DNA of 32,490 bases from a bacterium. Its GTDB lineage: Bacteria; Patescibacteriota; Minisyncoccia; Phycocordibacterales; VMGT01. The position numbers were made by a program, and so were the translations under genes. Of this stretch, positions 6,542 through 32,490 are shown piece by piece. The stretch spans positions 1 to 32,490 of the forward strand of contig JAUYPI010000017.1 of NCBI GenBank assembly GCA_030697645.1, in the 5' to 3' direction. The notes below the pieces were generated by a model. The model was not told the DNA's origin. It did no database searches and worked only from the letters and a program-made list of their open reading frames with translations. Numbering within the stretch: the stretch's first letter is position 1; the number at the start of each line of letters is the position of its first letter.

Positions 6542-9500
6542 TCAAAGACAAACAGTTGACGCAATCGCATCACCTTCCCGGAGCTTCATGATCCGTACTC
6601 CCTGCGTCGCGCGGCCGAGGAGCGGAATCTCGCGGAGCGCAAGACGAATCACCTGTCCGCGCTTTGAAATCGCGACGACTTCCGCCTCGCTCTCCTCGAC
6701 GACACCCGCGCGGATGAGACGGCCGGTTTTTGCGCTCACCTTGAGCGTCTTGATGCCCCCGCCGCCACGGCCCTGAACTTTGTACTCCTTAAGCGCGGTG
6801 CGCTTCCCGAAGCCCTTCTCGCTCACGACAAGGAGCGCGGGCGCCTCCAGGGTGGAGCGAACCGAATCCGCCCCGACGACGCTGTCCCCCTTCGCGAGAC
6901 GCATGCCGCGGACGCCCGCGGCGGCACGTCCCATCTCGCGGACTGTGGATGCTTTGAACCGGATCGCCTGCCCGGCAGCAGTCGCGATGATCGCGTCGTC
7001 TCCGCGGCCGACAAAAAAGGTCGAGACGAGCTGGTCGTCCGCGGGGATCGTGATCGCGATGAGTCCGCTCCTGCGCACCTCGTGGAAACTCTTCGCCGCG
7101 ACACGTTTTACTCTGCCCTGCCGCGTTACCATCATCACCGAGAGCGCCTCCTCCGCGCGCCTCTCTGAGAGCATCACAAGCACGGAGCTGACCTCCTCGC
7201 CTTGAGAAAGCGGCAGGAAGTTCATGATGGACTTGCCGCGCGTCGCCTTCCTCCCCTCCGGCACATCATACATCTTCGTCTGGTAAACCTTCCCGCGATT
7301 GGTGAAAAAGAGGATGTCGGAGAGCGTACTTCCCGTGAGCAGAGTCGTTACGAAATCCTCCTCTTTGGTATTCATATCAATGACGCCGACGCCGCCGCGC
7401 CGCTGCCTGCGGTACTCGGACGGATTCGTGCGCTTCACGTAGCCCCCTCGGGTGAGCACGAGCACCGACTCCTCGTCCGGAATCAGATCCTCGTCGGTCA
7501 TTTCCTTGACGCCATGCCGGACGATGCGCGTCCGCCGCTCGTCGCCGTACTTCGCCGCGACCTCGGCAAGCTCGGTTTTAATCACCCCGCGGATCCTCTT
7601 CGGGCTCACGAGGAGCGCTCTGAGGTCGGCGATCAGCTTCTCTACCGCGAGCAGCTCCTCTTCTACCTTTTTGCGCTCGAGCCCGGCGAGCTTCTGGAGC
7701 CGCATCTCGAGGATCGCGGTCGCCTGCCTGTCGGAAAAGCGAAATTCGCGCATCAACGCCGTATGCGCCCCTGTGACATCGCGCGAGCCACGGATCGTCT
7801 TGATGATTTTGTCTATCTGATCGAGCGCCTTTTTGAGGCCGAGGAGGATGTGCTCGCGCTCCTCAGAACGCGCGAGGTCAAAGCGGCTCCGCCGCTCCAC
7901 GACATCAATACGGTGCTCGACAAACTTCTCCAGCATGCCCTTCAGCGAAAAGGTACGGGGGACGCCCTCATCAAGCGCCACCATATTGAAGTGGAAGGTG
8001 TCTTCGAGCCCCGTGTGCTTGTAGATGAAATTCAGGACTTGCTTCGGCTGCGCCGTGCCCTTCAGCCCGACGACGACGCGAATGTCTTTTGTGGACTCAT
8101 CGCGAAGCTCTTTAATCCCCTCGAGCTTTTTGTCACGCACCAAAGCCGCGATGCTCTCCATGAGGTCGGCCTTGTTCGTACGGTACGGGATCGAGGTGAT
8201 GATGATCTGCGTCGTGCCATCTTTCCCTTCGGTGATCTCCGCCTCCCCGCGCACGACGACGCCGCCACGGCCGGTCGCGTAGGCGTGGTGGAGGTCGCGC
8301 GTCCCATAGAGCACCGCGCCAATCGGGAAATCCGGACCTTTAATATACTCGAGCATTTCTTCGGTCGTCGCCTCGGGATTATCAATGAGATGCGCGAGCG
8401 CGGCCGCCACCTCGCCGAGATTGTGCGGCGGGATATTGGTCGCCATACCGACCGCGATGCCAAGCGTGCCGTTGAGGAGGAGGTTCGGCAGAGCGGCAGG
8501 CAGCACCACGGGCTCGCGTCGCGTCGCGTCGTAGTTTGGGCGCCAGTCAGTGGTCTCTTTCTCAAGGTCGCGCAGGAGCTCCGCAGAGAGCCGCGCCATC
8601 TTCGCCTCAGAATATCTCATTGCCGCCGCAGGGTCGCCGTCGATTGAGTTGTGTACAAAAACGCCAGCCGCAAGCGCAAAGTTATGCGTACCGTCAACAG
8701 TCACATCGTATACGTCCTCGCGCTCATGGAGCCGCTCGACGAGCACGACCGAGTGGTTATACTGCCGCGCAAGAGTTATCATCTCGTCAACGCCTGAAAA
8801 ATAGGCGAGTGCTTTTTCATAATGCGGAATTCCTGTGCCGCGATTGGCCTCATACATTTCCTCCGAAACAGACTCCTCTACCGCGAGCAGCTTCCTCACA
8901 TATCCCAAAATTCTACTCCGCATAACACCCCGTCCGTATGATGGATCGTTCCACTTCTCCCGCAAAGCAACACTCGCGCGCTCGGTGAGCCGCTGCATAA
9001 AAGAAGGGTCGAGCTCAACGCGGCTCTCATATGCGCGCGCCCTGCCACGGGCGGCTTTCTCCCGAAAAGACGGATCCTCGAGTTGTCGCGCCATCTTTTG
9101 GCTATGCATATCGCGCATCTCCGGATTCTCCCAGAGCGTTTTTGCGGCATTCACGAAATGGTCGCGCGGAAAATGCGCTCTATATAACGGGTCATCCCAT
9201 TGCCGTCTTGCGCGCTCCGTGTGCAGCTCTCTATAATCCGCTCTCTGCCATGCGCGCTGTGTTGCGCCAGAAATATGCGCACGATGCTCTTCGGACCGCC
9301 ACAGTTCTTGCGACATGAGACGCATGCGCTCTGCCTGCGCTGCGCGATAGCGAGCATCCTGCCACCGCTCGCGCATCTCGACAGACTTAACTTCGCTCAT
9401 ATGCGACCGAAATTCATCTTTCTTCCATGCTTCTTTTAATCGCGCGCTCGCTTCAGCCGCACGCTCTGCCTTATATTCCGGATTAAGCCATCGCTCCTTG

Positions 9501-10570
9501 AGGGCAGCGGCCTGCTGCACTCGATACGCCGGACTGCGCCACATTTCTGCGTTACGCTCTCGCATGCGCTCGGCACGCTCTTCGCGCGCTGCTCCCTGTG
9601 CGTAGTAGGCGGCGCGGCCTGCGGCAAGACGTTCTCGGTACGCGGCATCATGCGCGTGTCGCTCAGCGGCGATTTCATAATGTACCCGCCAGTGCTCCTG
9701 CCACGGTAGACGAACGATATTATCCGGGTTATTGTTCCTCTTATTAAAATCTTTGTAGTGGCGAACTTTCCCCTCTCGACGATGGTAGACCAAATGCGCA
9801 AGATTCCATTCATCAGCAAGATGGTGCGTATAACCCCACGTGTGGCTCCATGGCTGGAGCACCATTTCATAATCGACGATGTGCGGATCATCTTCTTTTG
9901 TTGAAGGACGAGTGTAGAGCGGCATGAGCGAATCGCCAGGCGCTAGAAGCCGTGCTTCACTGAATGAACCATCCCGGAGGAGAAAGCGGTGATCGGGCGT
10001 ACAACGAATACGCTCGCCATTATCAAGGGTAACGCGCACAAGTTCGGCATCTCGTCTCGTCACTCGAGGATGCTCTACAAGCGCAAGTCGTATGTTTTTT
10101 GACTTTTTATCATAGGTATAGATGTAATTTTTCTTTCCCGCTGCATCCTCTGCTACCAATTCTATAAATGAGAGCACGCGCCCATCGGCAAGCTGTAGCT
10201 TCGTATCGCCGGTAAAACAGCCAAAATTTCCTTGCCCCAGCACGAGAGGGTAACGCATCGAAAAATCTTGCGCCATTTTGACGAGCGCATCGTAGATCGC
10301 GGAGTCGCCGTGCGGGTGATATTGGGCCATCACGCTCCCCACGACCGCTGCAGATTTGCGGAACTTCGCCCCGGCATGAAGCCCCATCTGCTGCATGGTG
10401 TAGAGAATGCGGCGGTGGACGGGCTTCAGCCCGTCCCGCACGTCAGGAAGCGCGCGGGCGGTAATCACCGACATCGCGTAGTCGAGGTAGGACTCCCTCA
10501 TCTCGTCGCTTATGCTGCGCGGGACGATACCACGTTGCCTGCTCTCGGCTTCCTTTGTCTCCTCCGCCAT
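6542..10570 (-). CDS. gyrA: DNA gyrase subunit A precursor with intein
   Basis: The 1342-residue precursor gives an 818-residue GyrA after removal of a 524-residue intein (residues 118-641). The N-extein has the winged-helix region and the QRDR block [12 protein letters not shown]90 and D94 match E. coli S83 and D87, so no quinolone-resistance change is seen at these two sites. The catalytic tyrosine is Y653 of the precursor, in [11 protein letters not shown]. The C-terminal beta-propeller carries a GyrA box (QRRGGVG), supporting gyrase rather than topoisomerase IV. GyrA introduces negative supercoils with GyrB (not in this window). A promoter at 10579-10607 places the transcript start within about two bases of the ATG, suggesting a leaderless mRNA. 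Confidence 0.97.
8648..10219 (-). mobile_element. GyrA intein with HNH homing endonuclease and W-repeat array
   Basis: The intein starts at C118 of the precursor, just after GQGNFG, and ends at VHN before S642. Splicing residues are present: Cys1, block-B TPDH (intein 74-77), and block [12 protein letters not shown] to H523-N524 with Ser at +1. Residues about 131-181 form an HNH-type nuclease (HH at 132-133, then [10 protein letters not shown] and EHWRVHY). Residues 189-432 hold a tandem array with tryptophans at 227, 244, 265, 286, 307, 324, 341, 363 and 423. Leucines stand in at 380 and 403, and most units read W-x-x-P-x-Y/F-R. The site differs from the mycobacterial GyrA intein site at the catalytic Tyr. 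The nuclease looks intact, so homing may still be active. Confidence 0.93.
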
Positions 10571-11870: not shown

Positions 11871-14201
11871 ATGAACCTCGATCCCGACACGCCGCTTGAA
11901 GAGATTTTCCGACTAACTCCGGCGCATAAACAAGCGCTGAGGAAACTCCAGCTCACAAGCGCCCGCGACCTCCTCTATCACTTCCCTGTCCGCTACCAAA
12001 GCGCGGGTGTTGCGCACGCGGTTAGCGAGCTCATCTCCGGCGAGAATGCGATAGTATCCGGCACGCTCGCGAAAATTGAAGCCCTCAAAACATTCCGCCG
12101 CAAGGTTCCGGCGACTAAGGCAGTACTCCGTGATGAGAGCGGCGCGCTTTCGGTAACGTGGCTCCACCAGCCCTACCTCGCGACGATGCTCCGCGAAGGT
12201 ACGAAGGTACGCCTCACCGGGAAAGTTACGACGCAGGGCGGCCGACCCACGATGTTCAACCCTGAAGTGGAGCGCGCCGACGCGGACACGATGCAGAGCG
12301 ACGCCGACTTGCGCGGACCGAACGCAAATACGACGCAGGCAGTACGCGGACAAAACGCGGACACGCCCCTCTTTCCCGTCTACGCCGAGAGTCGCGGCGT
12401 CTCATCGCGCTGGATGTTCTACGCAGTACACAAGCTCTTGGAGAGGGGAGTCCTCGCACTCCTCGAAGACCCGCTGCCCAAGGAGCTGCTCCACCGCTAC
12501 CATCTGCCTGCTCTCGATGCGGCGCTCCGCTACATCCACGCACCGAAAAGCGAGCGGCACAGCATCGCCGCGCGCAAGCGCTTCGCTTTCGAGGAAGTGT
12601 TCCTCATCCAGCTCGCGCGGCTCGGCGAGCGCCAGACGCTCGACGCGCTCCCCTCGTTCCGCATTGAAAAAACGCTCTCCGACCTCGCCGGCTTTCTCTC
12701 ACGTTTGCCGTTTGAGCTGACAGAGGCGCAAAAACGCGCGATTGAAGCTGTGCTTCGCGACTTCGAGAGCGGCCACCCGATGTCACGCCTCCTTGAGGGC
12801 GATGTCGGCTCTGGAAAAACCGCGGTCGCTGCGGCGACTGCGTATGCGATAGTCACCACGCGTCCAAGGAGGCCCGCCGCGAGAGAGGAGCTCGGCGCTG
12901 CGAAACTCGCCTCCGCAGAGGGCTACGACGGAGCAAAGCAGGACTTCGGCAATCTTCAAGTCGCCTATATGGCGCCGACCGAGATCCTTGCCAAACAGCA
13001 CTTCGCCACGTTTATTGAACTTTTTTCCCATCTGCCTATACATATCGGCCTCATAACCTCAAGCGGCTGTAAAAAATTTCCATCAAAAACAAGGCCTGAC
13101 GAGGCGACGGCAATCTCCCGAGTGCAACTGCTACGCTGGGTCGCAAGCGGCGAAATCGCCATCCTCATCGGCACGCATGCGCTTATTCAAAAAAGTGTCC
13201 TGTTCAAGCACCTTGCGTACGTCATTATTGACGAACAGCACCGATTCGGAGTCAGCCAGCGCGCGGCGCTGGTTCGCAGACACACGCAGACTGAACGCAG
13301 AATTTCGCAGAAACAAATCGCAGCGGAGGTGTCCGCGTTAAGTCCGCATCAGTCCGCGTCTATTCCGCATCTGCTCTCTATGACCGCGACACCGATCCCC
13401 CGCACACTCGCGCTCACGATCTACGGCGACCTCGACTTGACACTCCTCGACGAGATGCCGCATGGGAGAAAACCGGTGCTCACTGAGATTCTGGTTGCCG
13501 CGCAGCGCGAGAGAGCCTACGAGCGGATGCGCTCCGAGCTCGCCCGCGGCCGTCAGTGCTATGTGATCTGCCCACGCATTGATGAGCCGGACCCGGAAAA
13601 GGAGCTCGCGCTTCAGGCAAAGTCGGTGAAAGAAGAGGCGGCGCGGCTCAGCCGCGATGTCTTTCCACGCCAGAAAATCGAAGTGCTTCACGGCGCCCTG
13701 ACCCCGGCTGTGCGCGAGGCGACGATGCAGAGATTTGCTGCAGGCGAAGTACACATTCTTGTCGCAACTTCTGTCGTCGAGGTCGGCGTCAACGTGCCGA
13801 ATACAACCGTGATCTTGATCGAAGGTTCCGAGCGCTTCGGGCTCGCGCAGCTACACCAGCTCCGCGGCCGCGTGCTCAGGAGCACCGACCAGGCGTATTG
13901 CTTTGCACTCACCGAGAGCCGCTCAAAACTCGTCGCCGAGCGCCTGCGTGCTCTCAAAACCGCAAAAAACGGCTTCGAGCTCGCGGAGCTCGATCTCAAG
14001 ATCCGCGGCCCGGGTGAGCTCTCGGGTGCTCGCCAGTGGGGCCTCTCCGACGTCGGCATGGAGGCGCTGAAAAACATCAAAATGGTCGAGGCCGCGCGGA
14101 CAGAGGCCGCGCGGCTCATCAGGGAAGATCCGGAGCTCGAACGTCACCCGTCACTTCGAGCCCTTGCCGAGAGCAGACAGACCGCTATTCACTTCGAGTG
14201 A
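11871..14201 (+). CDS. recG: ATP-dependent DNA helicase RecG
   Basis: RecG reverses stalled forks and processes branched DNA. The protein has an N-terminal wedge/OB domain (VSGTLAKIEALKTFRR ... LTGKVTTQGGRPTMFNPE). Walker A is GDVGSGKT at residues 310-317, followed by MAPTEILAKQHF, the DEQH box at 454-457 in VIIDEQHRFGV, MTATPIPRTLAL, VATSVVEVGVNVPN and the C-terminal QLRGRVLRS block. At 776 residues it is about 80 longer than E. coli RecG. The extra length sits in three loop insertions: residues about 134-163, 330-358 and 467-495. Each is rich in short repeated DNA words and keeps frame. All helicase motifs are intact, so it should work. Confidence 0.96.
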   Translation: MNLDPDTPLEEIFRLTPAHKQALRKLQLTSARDLLYHFPVRYQSAGVAHAVSELISGENAIVSGTLAKIEALKTFRRKVPATKAVLRDESGALSVTWLHQPYLATMLREGTKVRLTGKVTTQGGRPTMFNPEVERADADTMQSDADLRGPNANTTQAVRGQNADTPLFPVYAESRGVSSRWMFYAVHKLLERGVLALLEDPLPKELLHRYHLPALDAALRYIHAPKSERHSIAARKRFAFEEVFLIQLARLGERQTLDALPSFRIEKTLSDLAGFLSRLPFELTEAQKRAIEAVLRDFESGHPMSRLLEGDVGSGKTAVAAATAYAIVTTRPRRPAAREELGAAKLASAEGYDGAKQDFGNLQVAYMAPTEILAKQHFATFIELFSHLPIHIGLITSSGCKKFPSKTRPDEATAISRVQLLRWVASGEIAILIGTHALIQKSVLFKHLAYVIIDEQHRFGVSQRAALVRRHTQTERRISQKQIAAEVSALSPHQSASIPHLLSMTATPIPRTLALTIYGDLDLTLLDEMPHGRKPVLTEILVAAQRERAYERMRSELARGRQCYVICPRIDEPDPEKELALQAKSVKEEAARLSRDVFPRQKIEVLHGALTPAVREATMQRFAAGEVHILVATSVVEVGVNVPNTTVILIEGSERFGLAQLHQLRGRVLRSTDQAYCFALTESRSKLVAERLRALKTAKNGFELAELDLKIRGPGELSGARQWGLSDVGMEALKNIKMVEAARTEAARLIREDPELERHPSLRALAESRQTAIHFE
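12268..12360 (+). repeat. In-frame repeat insertion 1 in recG
   Basis: Four spaced copies of the word GCGGAC lie in this stretch. It encodes an Asp/Asn/Ala/Thr-rich segment between NPE of the wedge domain and LFPVY, where RecG proteins normally have a short loop. The same word occurs on the other strand of insertion 3. Confidence 0.6.
12909..12942 (+). repeat. In-frame palindromic repeat (insertion 2) in recG
   Basis: GCCTCCGC and CGGAGC arms surround a short centre and are followed by CAAAGCAGG. The segment reads ASAEGYDGAKQ and lies between Walker A and the MAPTEI motif, where RecG normally has no such loop. A related repeat at 29683-29713 in the MNT gene reads ASAKGFGGQ in the same frame. 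Confidence 0.65.
13281..13370 (+). repeat. In-frame palindromic insertion 3 in recG
   Basis: The left half has GCAGACT/GCAGAA-type words and the right half their approximate complement (GTCCGCGTTAAGTCCGCA and similar), forming an imperfect long hairpin. The encoded residues lie between the DEQH box region and MTATPIPRT and replace a normally short loop. Confidence 0.6.
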
Positions 14202-17484: not shown

Positions 17485-17605
17485 GGAACTAGCAACCAGT
17501 AACTGGTAACTAGGGAACGGAAACACACCGCTCTGGCTTTGCCAGAGCGGTGTGTTTCTATCCGCCCGTCGTATCACCAGTTACGAGTGACTAGTTACCA
17601 GTTCC
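17485..17605. repeat. Palindromic 3'-end element, copy 1
   Basis: Arms of GGAACTRGYAAC-type words (GTAACTGGTAACTAG on one side, CTAGTTACCAGTTCC on the other) enclose a perfect hairpin. The element reaches into the TPR gene: its arm encodes the last residues G-T-G-N and the TAG stop. Copy 2 starts at the end of recA (32415). Confidence 0.8.
17521..17557. terminator. 17-bp hairpin inside the 3'-end element
   Basis: AAACACACCGCTCTGGC pairs perfectly with its complement across the loop TTT. It lies 34 bp after the TPR gene stop on the minus strand. The T-tract is short but the stem is very strong. The remaining spacer to 17300 holds a TGTGGATAA word (17465-17473) and a TATAAG -10-like word at 17326-17331. 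Confidence 0.65.
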
Positions 17606-29299: not shown

Positions 29300-29592
29300 G
29301 CTCCAGAACACCTTGTATGGGATAATAAAGAAAAGTTGTCAGTGATTGATTGGTGGAATAAGTATGGGCCATACACTCCAGAAAGGAATTCTGTGGCCTT
29401 ACGCCAAGTACTTTTTCTGTCAAGAATAAGGTTGTGGACGATGTAGACGGCATTTATATTGGAGGGTCAGAGGGAGTTTTAACGAACTATTTCATTTTAC
29501 CTGCACCTGGTAACAAAATATTGGAGATAAATCTAATGATACTTAATAGCAAGCAGATTCTCTCCACCTTCAAATTCATAAAATCATCGTAA
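29300..29592 (+). pseudogene. Frameshifted, 5'-truncated remnant of an exported protein gene
   Basis: The DNA after the PIN stop reads APEHLVWDNKEKLSVIDWWN, then NKYGPYTPERNSVAL. After one frameshift near 29399 it reads TPSTFSVKNKVVDDVDGIYI, GGSEGVLTNYFILPAPGNKI, LEIN and finally ILSTFKFIKSS and TAA. This aligns with the C-terminal part of the HEPN-fusion protein, which also ends ILSTFKFIKSS. The length (293 nt) is not a multiple of three. The last 36 bases are almost the same as those at 31307-31342, the start of the duplicated tract. Confidence 0.7.
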
Positions 29593-29774
29593 CCATAATT
29601 CATGCTTCTTGATTCATAATTCTTAGCTACCACCATGCCCAAAAAACCTGACGACAACAAAAACGAGCAAGCGCCGGGCCCAGCCTCCGCCAAAGGCTTC
29701 GGCGGGCAAGCAGCCACGAACACCGCGATTGACGAGAGCATCCGGCAAATCAAGACGAAGTTCGGCGAGGAGGC
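29557..29774 (+). repeat. Duplicated tract, copy 1 (partner at 31307-31500)
   Basis: The last codons of the exported protein, a 42-bp leader and the first codons of recA are repeated 1750 bp downstream. Identity is near perfect up to about 29670, then drifts. Copy 1 has a 24-nt in-frame insertion. After GGCGAGGAGGC this copy continues into the MNT gene while the other continues into recA. Confidence 0.9.
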
Positions 29775-30087
29775 TGCTCGGCAACTACAGCGGGTAACGG
29801 AAAAAATCGTTGCAGAGTATCAACCGGAGAAAATAATCCTGTTCGGCTCGTGGGCCTGGGGCGTACCACATGAGTGGAGCGATCTCGATCTGTTTATCGT
29901 AAAAGATTCTCCAAAAAAACGTCGGGAGCGAGAATATGAACTGCGAATGAAACTGTTCGGCAACAAGTTTCCACCCATGGACTTGCTCATCTACACGCCG
30001 GAAGAGATGGAAAAACGCGTCCACATAGGAGACTTCTTCGTGAATGACATCCTCGACCGCGGCACCGTGCTCTATGAAAAAACATAA
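29635..30087 (+). CDS. RecA N-terminus / MNT nucleotidyltransferase fusion (antitoxin)
   Basis: This 150-residue protein has two parts. Residues 1-47 ([12 protein letters not shown] ... [17 protein letters not shown]) copy the RecA start, with an extra ASAKGFGGQ insert. Residues 48-150 form a minimal nucleotidyltransferase of the MntA antitoxin group: FGSWAWG then WSDLDLF, which is the GSx10DxD motif with G71-S72 and D83, D85, and a later MDLLIY. MntA enzymes add AMP to the HEPN toxin partner. The next gene begins 14 bases before this stop, the usual MNT-HEPN overlap. The RecA part is the helix that in RecA packs on the next subunit. Whether it is functional or only an inherited leader is open. 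Confidence 0.85.
   Translation: MPKKPDDNKNEQAPGPASAKGFGGQAATNTAIDESIRQIKTKFGEEAARQLQRVTEKIVAEYQPEKIILFGSWAWGVPHEWSDLDLFIVKDSPKKRREREYELRMKLFGNKFPPMDLLIYTPEEMEKRVHIGDFFVNDILDRGTVLYEKT
29683..29713 (+). repeat. In-frame palindromic repeat in the MNT gene
   Basis: GCCTCCGCC and GGCGGGC arms surround AAAGGCTTC and are followed by AAGCAG. It encodes ASAKGFGGQ, absent from the parallel RecA start. It matches the recG repeat at 12909-12942 in sequence and frame. Confidence 0.65.
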
Positions 30088-31342
30088 ACTCTCGGAACAA
30101 GAATTGCAGACTGAAGAATGGGTCAAGCGGGCGACCGACGATGAACTCACCGCTCGCTCAATCCTCAAACACCGCGACGCGCCGCCGATGCCGGTCTGCT
30201 TTTTCTCACAGCAACTTGCCGAGAAATATCTCAAAGCGTTCCTGGTGCACCAGAGCCGGTGGTACCCGAAAATTCACCCGCTTGATGTGCTGCTCGAGCA
30301 CTGCCGAGACCTCGATGCGGAATTTGCGAAGCTCAAAGAAGACTGCCTCTTCCTCACGTCGTTCTACCGCGACACGCGGTACCCAGCTGATACGCCAGAC
30401 TACGATTGGAATGAGTGTGAAGCGGCGTTCGCAGCGGCGATTCGCGTGAAAGAATTCGTGCAAGAAAAACTCAAAATACTCACCTACAGCGCTGAAGCAG
30501 ATCGCGGCTTCGGCGCGCTCGGGTTTCTCGTGGTGACCGGCGGCGCGCTTGCTCTGTTCGCGGCACTGATGATCGCGCGACCGTGGAGCGCGACTCCGCA
30601 ACAGACGTATCCAATTTCCGATGAGACAATCGGCGCACCAACAGGCCCGACAGACGCGACTGATTCCTACGACCGACTGTGTGAATTAACCGGCGGCACG
30701 GCCGTATCCTGCCCGGAAAATCCTCCGCCAAACGCGGGGATGTGTCTACAATGTATGTGTCCCGAAGGAACATCATGGCAACCGGCCCGTGGCGGATGCA
30801 TGCATGACGCGGAGTCCAGTCCTCTAAACTCCAATGTCCAACCACCCGACGCAAACACTCTCTCGTCAATCGACACCTCAGACTGGAAGACGTATCGTAA
30901 TGAGGAGTATGGGTTTGAGTTTCAATATCCATCTACATGGAGCATTCGAACAGATGGCATTAATGATTTATCGCTCTTGCGTCCCGGAATGAAACTACCC
31001 AGCAAAGAGAACTTACCCTCACACGATGGTGTTTATTGGGGAGACATTCTAATTGATATATTCTCGAACCCAGATAATCTTTCCATCGAAGAGTATTTGA
31101 GCAAACCGGGGAACACATGGAAGCCCTTCGATCAAAATTTACCATTTGATCAGATCGCTATAAAAAATGGTGGTGAAATTTTTATATTTAGAAACATTCC
31201 TGGATTCTTCATATCAAGCTTTGCGTATATAAAGGGAAAACGCCCAATAATAGAAATTGCTGATATAGACATAGAAGATGAGTTCCGAGAGGAAATTTTT
31301 AATCACATTCTCTCCACTTTCAAATTCATAAAATCATCGTAA
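30074..31342 (+). CDS. HEPN-domain protein fused to membrane-anchored exported protein
   Basis: Starting at 30074 (MKKHKLSEQE) the protein has 422 residues. Residues 10-133 are a HEPN domain (EWVKRATDDELTARSIL, FFSQQLAEKYLKAFLV, IHPLDVLLEHC, FYRDTRYP). A membrane helix at about 148-167 (ALGFLVVTGGALALFAALMIA) and RPW follow; this stretch matches residues 13-37 of the protein at 27961. A Cys-rich segment (about 195-240) and a PsbP-like domain come last (WKTYRNEEYGFEFQYPSTW to ILSTFKFIKSS). HEPN toxins normally end near residue 135. The fusion would tether the nuclease-like part inside the membrane and export the rest. The RYP form replaces a clear Rx4-6H motif. Context: MNT antitoxin upstream, recA downstream. 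Confidence 0.8.
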   Translation: MKKHKLSEQELQTEEWVKRATDDELTARSILKHRDAPPMPVCFFSQQLAEKYLKAFLVHQSRWYPKIHPLDVLLEHCRDLDAEFAKLKEDCLFLTSFYRDTRYPADTPDYDWNECEAAFAAAIRVKEFVQEKLKILTYSAEADRGFGALGFLVVTGGALALFAALMIARPWSATPQQTYPISDETIGAPTGPTDATDSYDRLCELTGGTAVSCPENPPPNAGMCLQCMCPEGTSWQPARGGCMHDAESSPLNSNVQPPDANTLSSIDTSDWKTYRNEEYGFEFQYPSTWSIRTDGINDLSLLRPGMKLPSKENLPSHDGVYWGDILIDIFSNPDNLSIEEYLSKPGNTWKPFDQNLPFDQIAIKNGGEIFIFRNIPGFFISSFAYIKGKRPIIEIADIDIEDEFREEIFNHILSTFKFIKSS

Positions 31343-31500
31343 CCATAATTCATGCTTCTTGATTCATAATTCTTAGCCACCACCATGCCCAAAAAACCTG
31401 ACGACAACAAAACCGAAAAAGCGTCGGGCGCCGCGAGCGCCACGAACACCGCGATTGACGACGCGATACGGCAGATCAAGACCAAGTTCGGCGAGGAGGC
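31307..31500 (+). repeat. Duplicated tract, copy 2 (partner at 29557-29774)
   Basis: This copy joins the end of the HEPN-fusion gene to the recA leader and first 39 recA codons. It lacks the 24-nt insertion and is probably the parental arrangement for the recA side. Confidence 0.9.
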
Positions 31501-32431
31501 GATTATGAAGCTCGGCGACCAGCCGAAGGTTGGCGTTGACGCGATCCCCACCGGCTCGATCGGGCTCGACTACGCGCTTGGCATCGGCGGCATCCCGCGC
31601 GGCAGGATTATCGAAATCTTTGGCCCAGAAAGTTCCGGGAAGACCTCCTTGGCGCTTCACATCGTCGCCGAGGCGCAGAAAAAGGGCGGCGTGTGCGCGT
31701 TCATTGACGCCGAGCACGCGCTCGACCCGGAGTATTCAAAAAAACTCGGCGTGAAGACTGCGGAGCTCTTGATCTCCCAGCCGGACACCGGCGAGCAGGC
31801 GCTCGAGATCACCGAGTCCCTCGTGCGCTCGGGGAAAATTGACGTCGTCGTCATTGACTCCGTCGCGGCACTCACGCCAAAAGACGAGATCGAAGGCGAG
31901 ATGGGCGCGCAACACATGGGAAAGCAAGCTCGCCTCATGAGCCAGGCGCTGCGCAAGCTCACGGCAATCGTCGCAAAGAGCAAAACCGTCGTCATTTTCA
32001 TCAACCAAATCCGGATGCAGATCGGGGTCCAGTGGGGAAATCCCGAAACCACTCCGGGCGGCAAAGCGCTCAAATTTTACACCTCGGTGCGACTCGACAT
32101 CCGCCGCATCGCGCAAATTAAGAAAGGCGAGGAAGTCGTCGGCGGGAGAGTGCGGGTCAAAGTAGTGAAAAACAAAGTCGCGCCGCCGTTCCGCTCCACC
32201 GAGTTCGACCTCCTCTACGGTGAGGGCATCGCTCGCGAGGGAGAGCTCCTCGCGCTTGGAGAGAAGTACAAGCTGATTGAGAAATCCGGCGCCTCCTACA
32301 GCTACGGCGAGCACAAACTCGGCCGCGGCTACGACGCCGCCCGCACCTTCCTCAAAGACAATCCCAAGGTCGCGGCCGACCTCCTCAAGCAAATCCGCGG
32401 TGCGATGACGAGACTGGAGACTGGTAACTAG
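31385..32431 (+). CDS. recA: Recombinase RecA
   Basis: RecA forms the ATP-dependent filament for strand exchange and DNA-damage response. The 348-residue protein has the N-terminal polymerisation helix ([20 protein letters not shown], about 21-40). Walker A is GPESSGKT at 80-87, followed by the [21 protein letters not shown] block, the L1/L2 region with [26 protein letters not shown], and a short C-terminal domain. All core motifs are present. No Shine-Dalgarno sequence precedes the ATG (GCCACCACCATG). Its last codons T-G-N and TAG come from the palindromic element at 32415-32490. Its leader and start are duplicated at 29557-29774. Confidence 0.98.
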
Positions 32432-32490
32432 TCACGAGTAACTGGGGGCTACGACGTGCGGATAGAAACGCGCCGCTCTGGCTTTGCCAG
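32415..32490. repeat. Palindromic 3'-end element, copy 2 (cut by window end)
   Basis: ACTGGTAACTAGTCACGAG, then GTGCGGATAGAAACGCGCCG and CTCTGGCTTTGCCAG, matches the complement of 17537-17605 closely. It supplies the last three codons and the stop of recA, and half of a terminator hairpin before the window ends. Confidence 0.8.

Follow-up and report, generated by a model that had tools for sequence, protein, structure and literature searches.

Two short stretches of a patescibacterial genome, one in recG and the other near the start of a gene for an MNT-type nucleotidyltransferase, very probably belong, as judged by sequence comparison, to a dispersed repeat of REP size whose copies enter new sites, conserved genes included. 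The two lie in frame in a contig stretch of 32,490 nucleotides, referred to here as the window. The existence of the repeat family, the in-frame location of its copies, the empty sites found in a paralogue and in relatives, and a bias in the choice of reading frame are supported directly by the data, and the repeat is probably mobile DNA. Protein-coding palindromes were already known in Rickettsia and Wolbachia, and within-gene REPs in some other bacteria; the present family, short and widespread, resides in frame within patescibacterial core genes. Very small genomes too would hold probably mobile repeats within essential genes.

Two copies in the window and their empty sites

The recG copy occupies positions 12909-12941 of the forward strand and is read ASAEGYDGAKQ, and the MNT gene has its copy close to the start codon, at 29683-29713 on the same strand, read ASAKGFGGQAA. 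The first-pass annotation had taken the two for the same repeat translated in one common frame, and both parts of that claim held. The codons are GCC TCC GCA GAG GGC TAC GAC GGA (ASAEGYDG) in recG and GCC TCC GCC AAA GGC TTC GGC GGG (ASAKGFGG) in the MNT gene. Pairwise alignment of the copies scored 17 (match 1, mismatch -1, gap -2), and when the rest of the window was searched with the MNT repeat, the recG place alone was found, its score of 16 exceeding the best scores of 20 Markov shuffles (11-14); a second test of their similarity gave p 0.003. A covariance model of 41 positions (CM R1), built from 27 aligned copies of foreign genomes without the window's own, recovered precisely these two places, at 29678-29718 with 40.6 bits and at 12904-12944 with 23.1 bits. 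The corresponding E-values were 6.8e-11 and 2.7e-5 window-wide, where the third-best match reached 9.8 bits, and 2.1e-9 and 8.6e-4 over the 1.03-Mb genome. Rfam recognized one tRNA in the window and nothing else.

A search of the whole genome (G000) for coding and non-coding copies, as had been proposed from the first look, yielded three more with E < 0.004 (C8:39448, C13:617 and C8:63659), the last two outside any long ORF. A place in the PheT gene (G000:C15; 14.6 bits, E 0.47 with CM R1 in its own genome) is a possible copy only. Searching this genome with the repeat pattern and 3 mismatches returned the MNT copy and little besides, because the copies differ by indels; hence the need for a covariance model.

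The recG gene (11871-14201, forward strand) encodes 776 amino acids, is open throughout and matches the NCBIfam RecG models with a best E of 2.4e-205, below their curated cut-offs. Alignment with the RecG of 28 relatives delimited a whole extra stretch of ~22 residues, RPAAREELGAAKLASAEGYDGA, at 12870-12938 of the forward strand, between helicase motifs I and Ia. Its 3' half is taken up by the repeat, and the core of the insert, missing in 80% of relatives, corresponds to 12873-12923. The segment between the two motifs is shorter in nearly all of the 28 proteins, including those of both same-family genomes, than which the window RecG has ~22 residues more, and the RecG of T. maritima (1gm5) has ~9 residues where that of the window has ~39. 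Relatives therefore lack the insert, which answers the comparison suggested in the first-pass annotation. At the same spot, the RecG of G034 (L005) bears an unrelated or decayed insert, and the recG of G048 (L244) carries a copy of the repeat at another site of the gene. Judged from these alignments, that is, from the short and variable segment in relatives, the G034 insert and the G048 copy elsewhere, the insertion spot is a tolerant loop.

Half of the recG insert is left unexplained by the repeat. The idea that the 5' half was a second, inverted copy was rejected, as it has no similarity to the repeat; it does show a weak similarity to a stretch of pheT (p 0.03). Two further stretches of the window RecG are missing in most relatives, at 12318-12341 (PNANTTQA) and at 13290-13355 (TERRISQKQIAAEVSALSPHQS). 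The loop with the 22 extra residues of the latter is also where a PD-(D/E)XK domain is nested in the RecG of two relatives, L030 (G042; tested there with PF13366) and L019 (G023).

The second copy offers an empty site within the window itself. The MNT gene (29635-30087, forward strand; PF01909, E 2.2e-9) has an upstream region and first ~40 codons that duplicate those of recA (31385-32431; TIGR02012, E 1e-155): positions 29551-29774 and 31301-31500, the latter on the forward strand and devoid of the repeat, form the D2/D8 repeats, ~90% identical over ~220 nt, and the start of the MNT protein is 79% identical to RecA residues 1-43. The extra 24 nt of the MNT copy within this duplicate, placed at 29685-29708 (forward strand) by MAFFT with an ambiguity of a few bases, are the repeat. 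The recA parallel had been cited as proof of an insertion or deletion of 24 nt in frame, and the alignment of the two regions agrees: strictly stated, they differ by an in-frame indel of 24 nt. As the RecA start of five relatives showed no repeat, the simpler view is that the MNT copy gained it. The extra residues are thus absent from relatives' recG and recA start, and the repeat exists as an order-wide family at the DNA level, the reverse of conserved protein residues with no DNA repeat elsewhere.

The MNT gene is the first of an MNT-HEPN pair (29551-31342; PF01909, then PF05168). Since this gene has captured a duplicate of the region upstream of recA together with its start codons, expression of the pair may resemble that of recA.

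Spread, hairpin and reading frames of the family

The family is defined by the core CCTYCGCCAAAGGCTNCGGCGG and by inserts of ~24-33 nt with a weak bulged hairpin. Among 247 genomes of the order, the core pattern with at most 3 mismatches gave 28 matches versus 2 for the reversed control, and of 98 genomes of the order searched with the covariance model, 42 had matches (E<=0.05), with up to 42 copies per genome; the genera of G025, G048 and G083 are rich in the repeat. Exact core matches include, among those listed, Zambryski-, Kaiser-, Nomura-, Ames-, Doudna- and Staskawiczbacteria and, beyond the phylum and again among those listed, Kiritimatiellae, Omnitrophica, Verrucomicrobia, Bacteroidales and many Bradyrhizobium. 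In Bradyrhizobium (L062-L139) the core is found inside longer CGTC-type REP-like repeats (GGATTGCTTC...GCAATGACG); these loci look as if one repeat had entered another.

The consensus stem has 7 bp with a 2-nt bulge, and its inner 4 bp are nearly invariant. Pairing was observed in 84% of cells compared with 32-48% for slid partners, for a structure that was itself chosen from the consensus. We detected no covariation in the hairpin beyond that of shuffles, and single window copies did not fold more stably than shuffled sequence. The palindromic nature of the repeat, the weak point of its description, is only moderately supported.

We counted a copy as coding when it lay in an ORF of at least 200 codons dominating its locus. 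By this criterion of ORF length, applied to the loci of the model search and 80 fetched stretches, 43 copies were coding and 33 were clearly outside such ORFs. The in-frame hosts in relatives included TopA (twice), UvrA, RecA, TrpRS, TypA and LeuRS, named by NCBIfam; ValRS and EF-G, which had 11 and 8 extra residues, respectively, compared with solved homologues; and FtsK, DnaE, AtpD and RecG, identified by sequence. In the topA gene of G046, a clean 30 nt is absent from two congeners, with no evident flanking homology; within the genus of G083, AtpD showed a variable site and no clean insertion. The family supplies many natural before/after pairs for studying how proteins tolerate inserts. 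The LeuRS of L271 (G025:C32) seems, by eye, to carry an inserted NTP pyrophosphatase-like stretch. In the window's own genome, an Ala/Arg/Glu-rich stretch of pheT (L186, G000:C15 ~59200) is coded by a long imperfect palindrome, of which 16 bases match the reverse-complemented MNT repeat exactly.

Most of the core's six reading frames are free of stops (5.2 on average, against 4.8 for shuffled sequence; p 0.03), yet genes do not use them evenly. Only 2 of the 37 copies well internal to long ORFs used the arginine-rich frames (LRQRLRR, RRSLWRR), where a third would be expected (p 5.7e-5, an approximate value since copies that related genomes inherited in common stayed in the count). The frames in use give small, flexible residues (ASAKGFGG, PSPKATAG, PAVALAK), and such biased usage would fit what selection against harmful inserts leaves behind. 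Annotators should regard ASAKGFGGQ, PSPKATAGQ and PAVALAKEG as repeat-derived peptides and not as domains.

One could argue that these peptides are convergent low-complexity linkers, in which the Ala/Ser/Gly/Lys-rich loops of a GC-rich genome would arrive at similar DNA through chance and codon bias. Both window copies do fall in regions that vary, one in a RecG loop and the other in a RecA-derived N-terminus, and the RecG loops of relatives differ greatly in length. However, the same DNA also occurs between genes, and both of its strands are translated, in more than one frame, which protein convergence cannot explain, and a model made from other genomes retrieves the window copies with E of 7e-11 and 3e-5. 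The intergenic and opposite-strand copies largely refute this explanation, and we consider it highly improbable. We give just as little credence to the proposal that the inserts are functional, for instance as RNA hairpins or protein-binding sites that control recG and other repair genes, the peptide being a by-product. Several hosts do act in DNA repair (recG, uvrA, recA), as is the case for other REPs (PMC3733652), but translation genes (ValRS, LeuRS, TrpRS, EF-G, TypA) are hosts equally often, the insertion sites in recG differ among genomes, relatives lack the inserts, and no signal of RNA structure was found. A dispersed inserting repeat is the reading that we retain. Its boldest extension, a mobile palindrome that spans phyla and is active in Patescibacteria, poor in stops and filtered by frame, which would be a steady source of flexible loops in the essential enzymes of streamlined genomes, is conceivable but rather doubtful.

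Known repeats and a candidate transposase

The first-pass annotation had compared the repeat with Rickettsia palindromic elements (RPEs; Ogata et al. 2000, 2002). These measure 105-146 bp, form long stem-loops and, in the accounts given by PMC2229807 and PMC10969869, reside in frame in many unrelated conserved genes and also between genes; the same two sources cite a Wolbachia equivalent (Ogata et al. 2005). The resemblance is one of behaviour. The patescibacterial repeat also combines in-frame copies in several unrelated conserved genes (recG and the MNT gene in the window, other genes in relatives) with intergenic copies, has open reading frames, is harboured by dependent hosts with small genomes, and has homologous sites without the insert (recA versus the MNT gene, recG of the same family, the TopA of congeners). 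The likeness does not extend to sequence and size: the repeat belongs to another phylum, is 24-33 nt long instead of 105-146, and has a weak 7-bp bulged stem, whereas the elements that bear the RPE name have a long stem-loop and terminal inverted repeats.

Closer in size are the intragenic GTAG/CGTC REPs, repeats of 20-40 bp linked to RAYT transposases and found in several phyla, also in replication, repair and aminoacyl-tRNA synthetase genes, with DNA repair accounting for many of the genes concerned (Rocco et al. 2013, PMC3733652), among which phyla Patescibacteria are not listed (PMC3733652). Our family fits them in size and copy number and has repair and aminoacyl-tRNA synthetase genes among its hosts. 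Those REPs are stem-loop repeats lying mostly between genes; here the stem is weak and without covariation, and by ORF length 43 copies are coding against 33 clearly not. The consensus (nnCCCGCCTTCGCCAAAGGCTnCGGCGGGC...) has no terminal GTAG or CGTC tag at either end. In behaviour the family resembles both RPEs and intragenic REPs; its sequence is another one, shorter and free of GTAG/CGTC end tags. In the open-access papers searched we found no description of palindromic or REP repeats in Patescibacteria, Parcubacteria or the Candidate Phyla Radiation.

RAYT/IS200-type Y1 transposases (PF01797, NF047646) are present in most genomes holding the repeat, including this one, where Y1_Tnp occurs as one ORF and one fragment. 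They make a candidate RAYT-repeat pair. Matches to the RAYT model fall below its curated cut-off; in three inspected transposases, REP_Tyr_transpos was the sole NCBIfam family matched, also below the curated cut-off. In a comparison with mostly one genome per family, Y1_Tnp was commoner with the repeat (35 of 42 genomes) than without it (23 of 56; p 2.7e-5; Spearman 0.50), and it was missing from 2 of the 21 genomes holding more than two copies. Repeats showed no excess beside transposase genes, since 3 lay within 3 kb where 3.2 would be expected by chance, and gave no sign of a REPtron arrangement, so that transposition by a RAYT in trans is something we infer rather than a result. The hairpin that such an enzyme would require is weak. 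The repeat would insert at new sites, the middles of conserved genes among them, by single-strand transposition of its hairpin carried out in trans by a RAYT-like Y1_Tnp. Copies within genes would be kept solely where the frame stays intact and the 8-11 added residues fall in a tolerant loop; most inserts would be near neutral, and the proteins bearing them would still be functional.

Spread by gene conversion or short-homology recombination, or copying along with flanking DNA, might replace transposition in this scheme. The absence of a local link to a transposase gene would be compatible with it, as would the variable length of the inserts (24, 30, 33 and ~66 nt) and the position of the MNT copy within a recombined recA duplicate; no target-site duplication was seen at the inserts. 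On the other hand, the flanks of the copies are unrelated to each other, the clean TopA empty site has no evident flanking homology, and the association with Y1_Tnp holds at the genome level. We deem recombination an unlikely route, if less so than convergence or regulatory function, and favour transposition.

Some other features deserve mention. The RAYT-like ORF of the same genome (L322, G000:C4:38200-40400) contains RGGSDPP as a repeated motif, which may be an in-frame palindrome of a different kind. In the window, GyrA (1342 aa; 6542-10570, minus strand) contains an intein (PF14890, residues ~150-641). Finally, 17533-17602 and 32420-32490 form an inverted repeat pair 15 kb apart, with segments of 46 and 26 nt (83% and 92%), the second member of which lies at the contig end.
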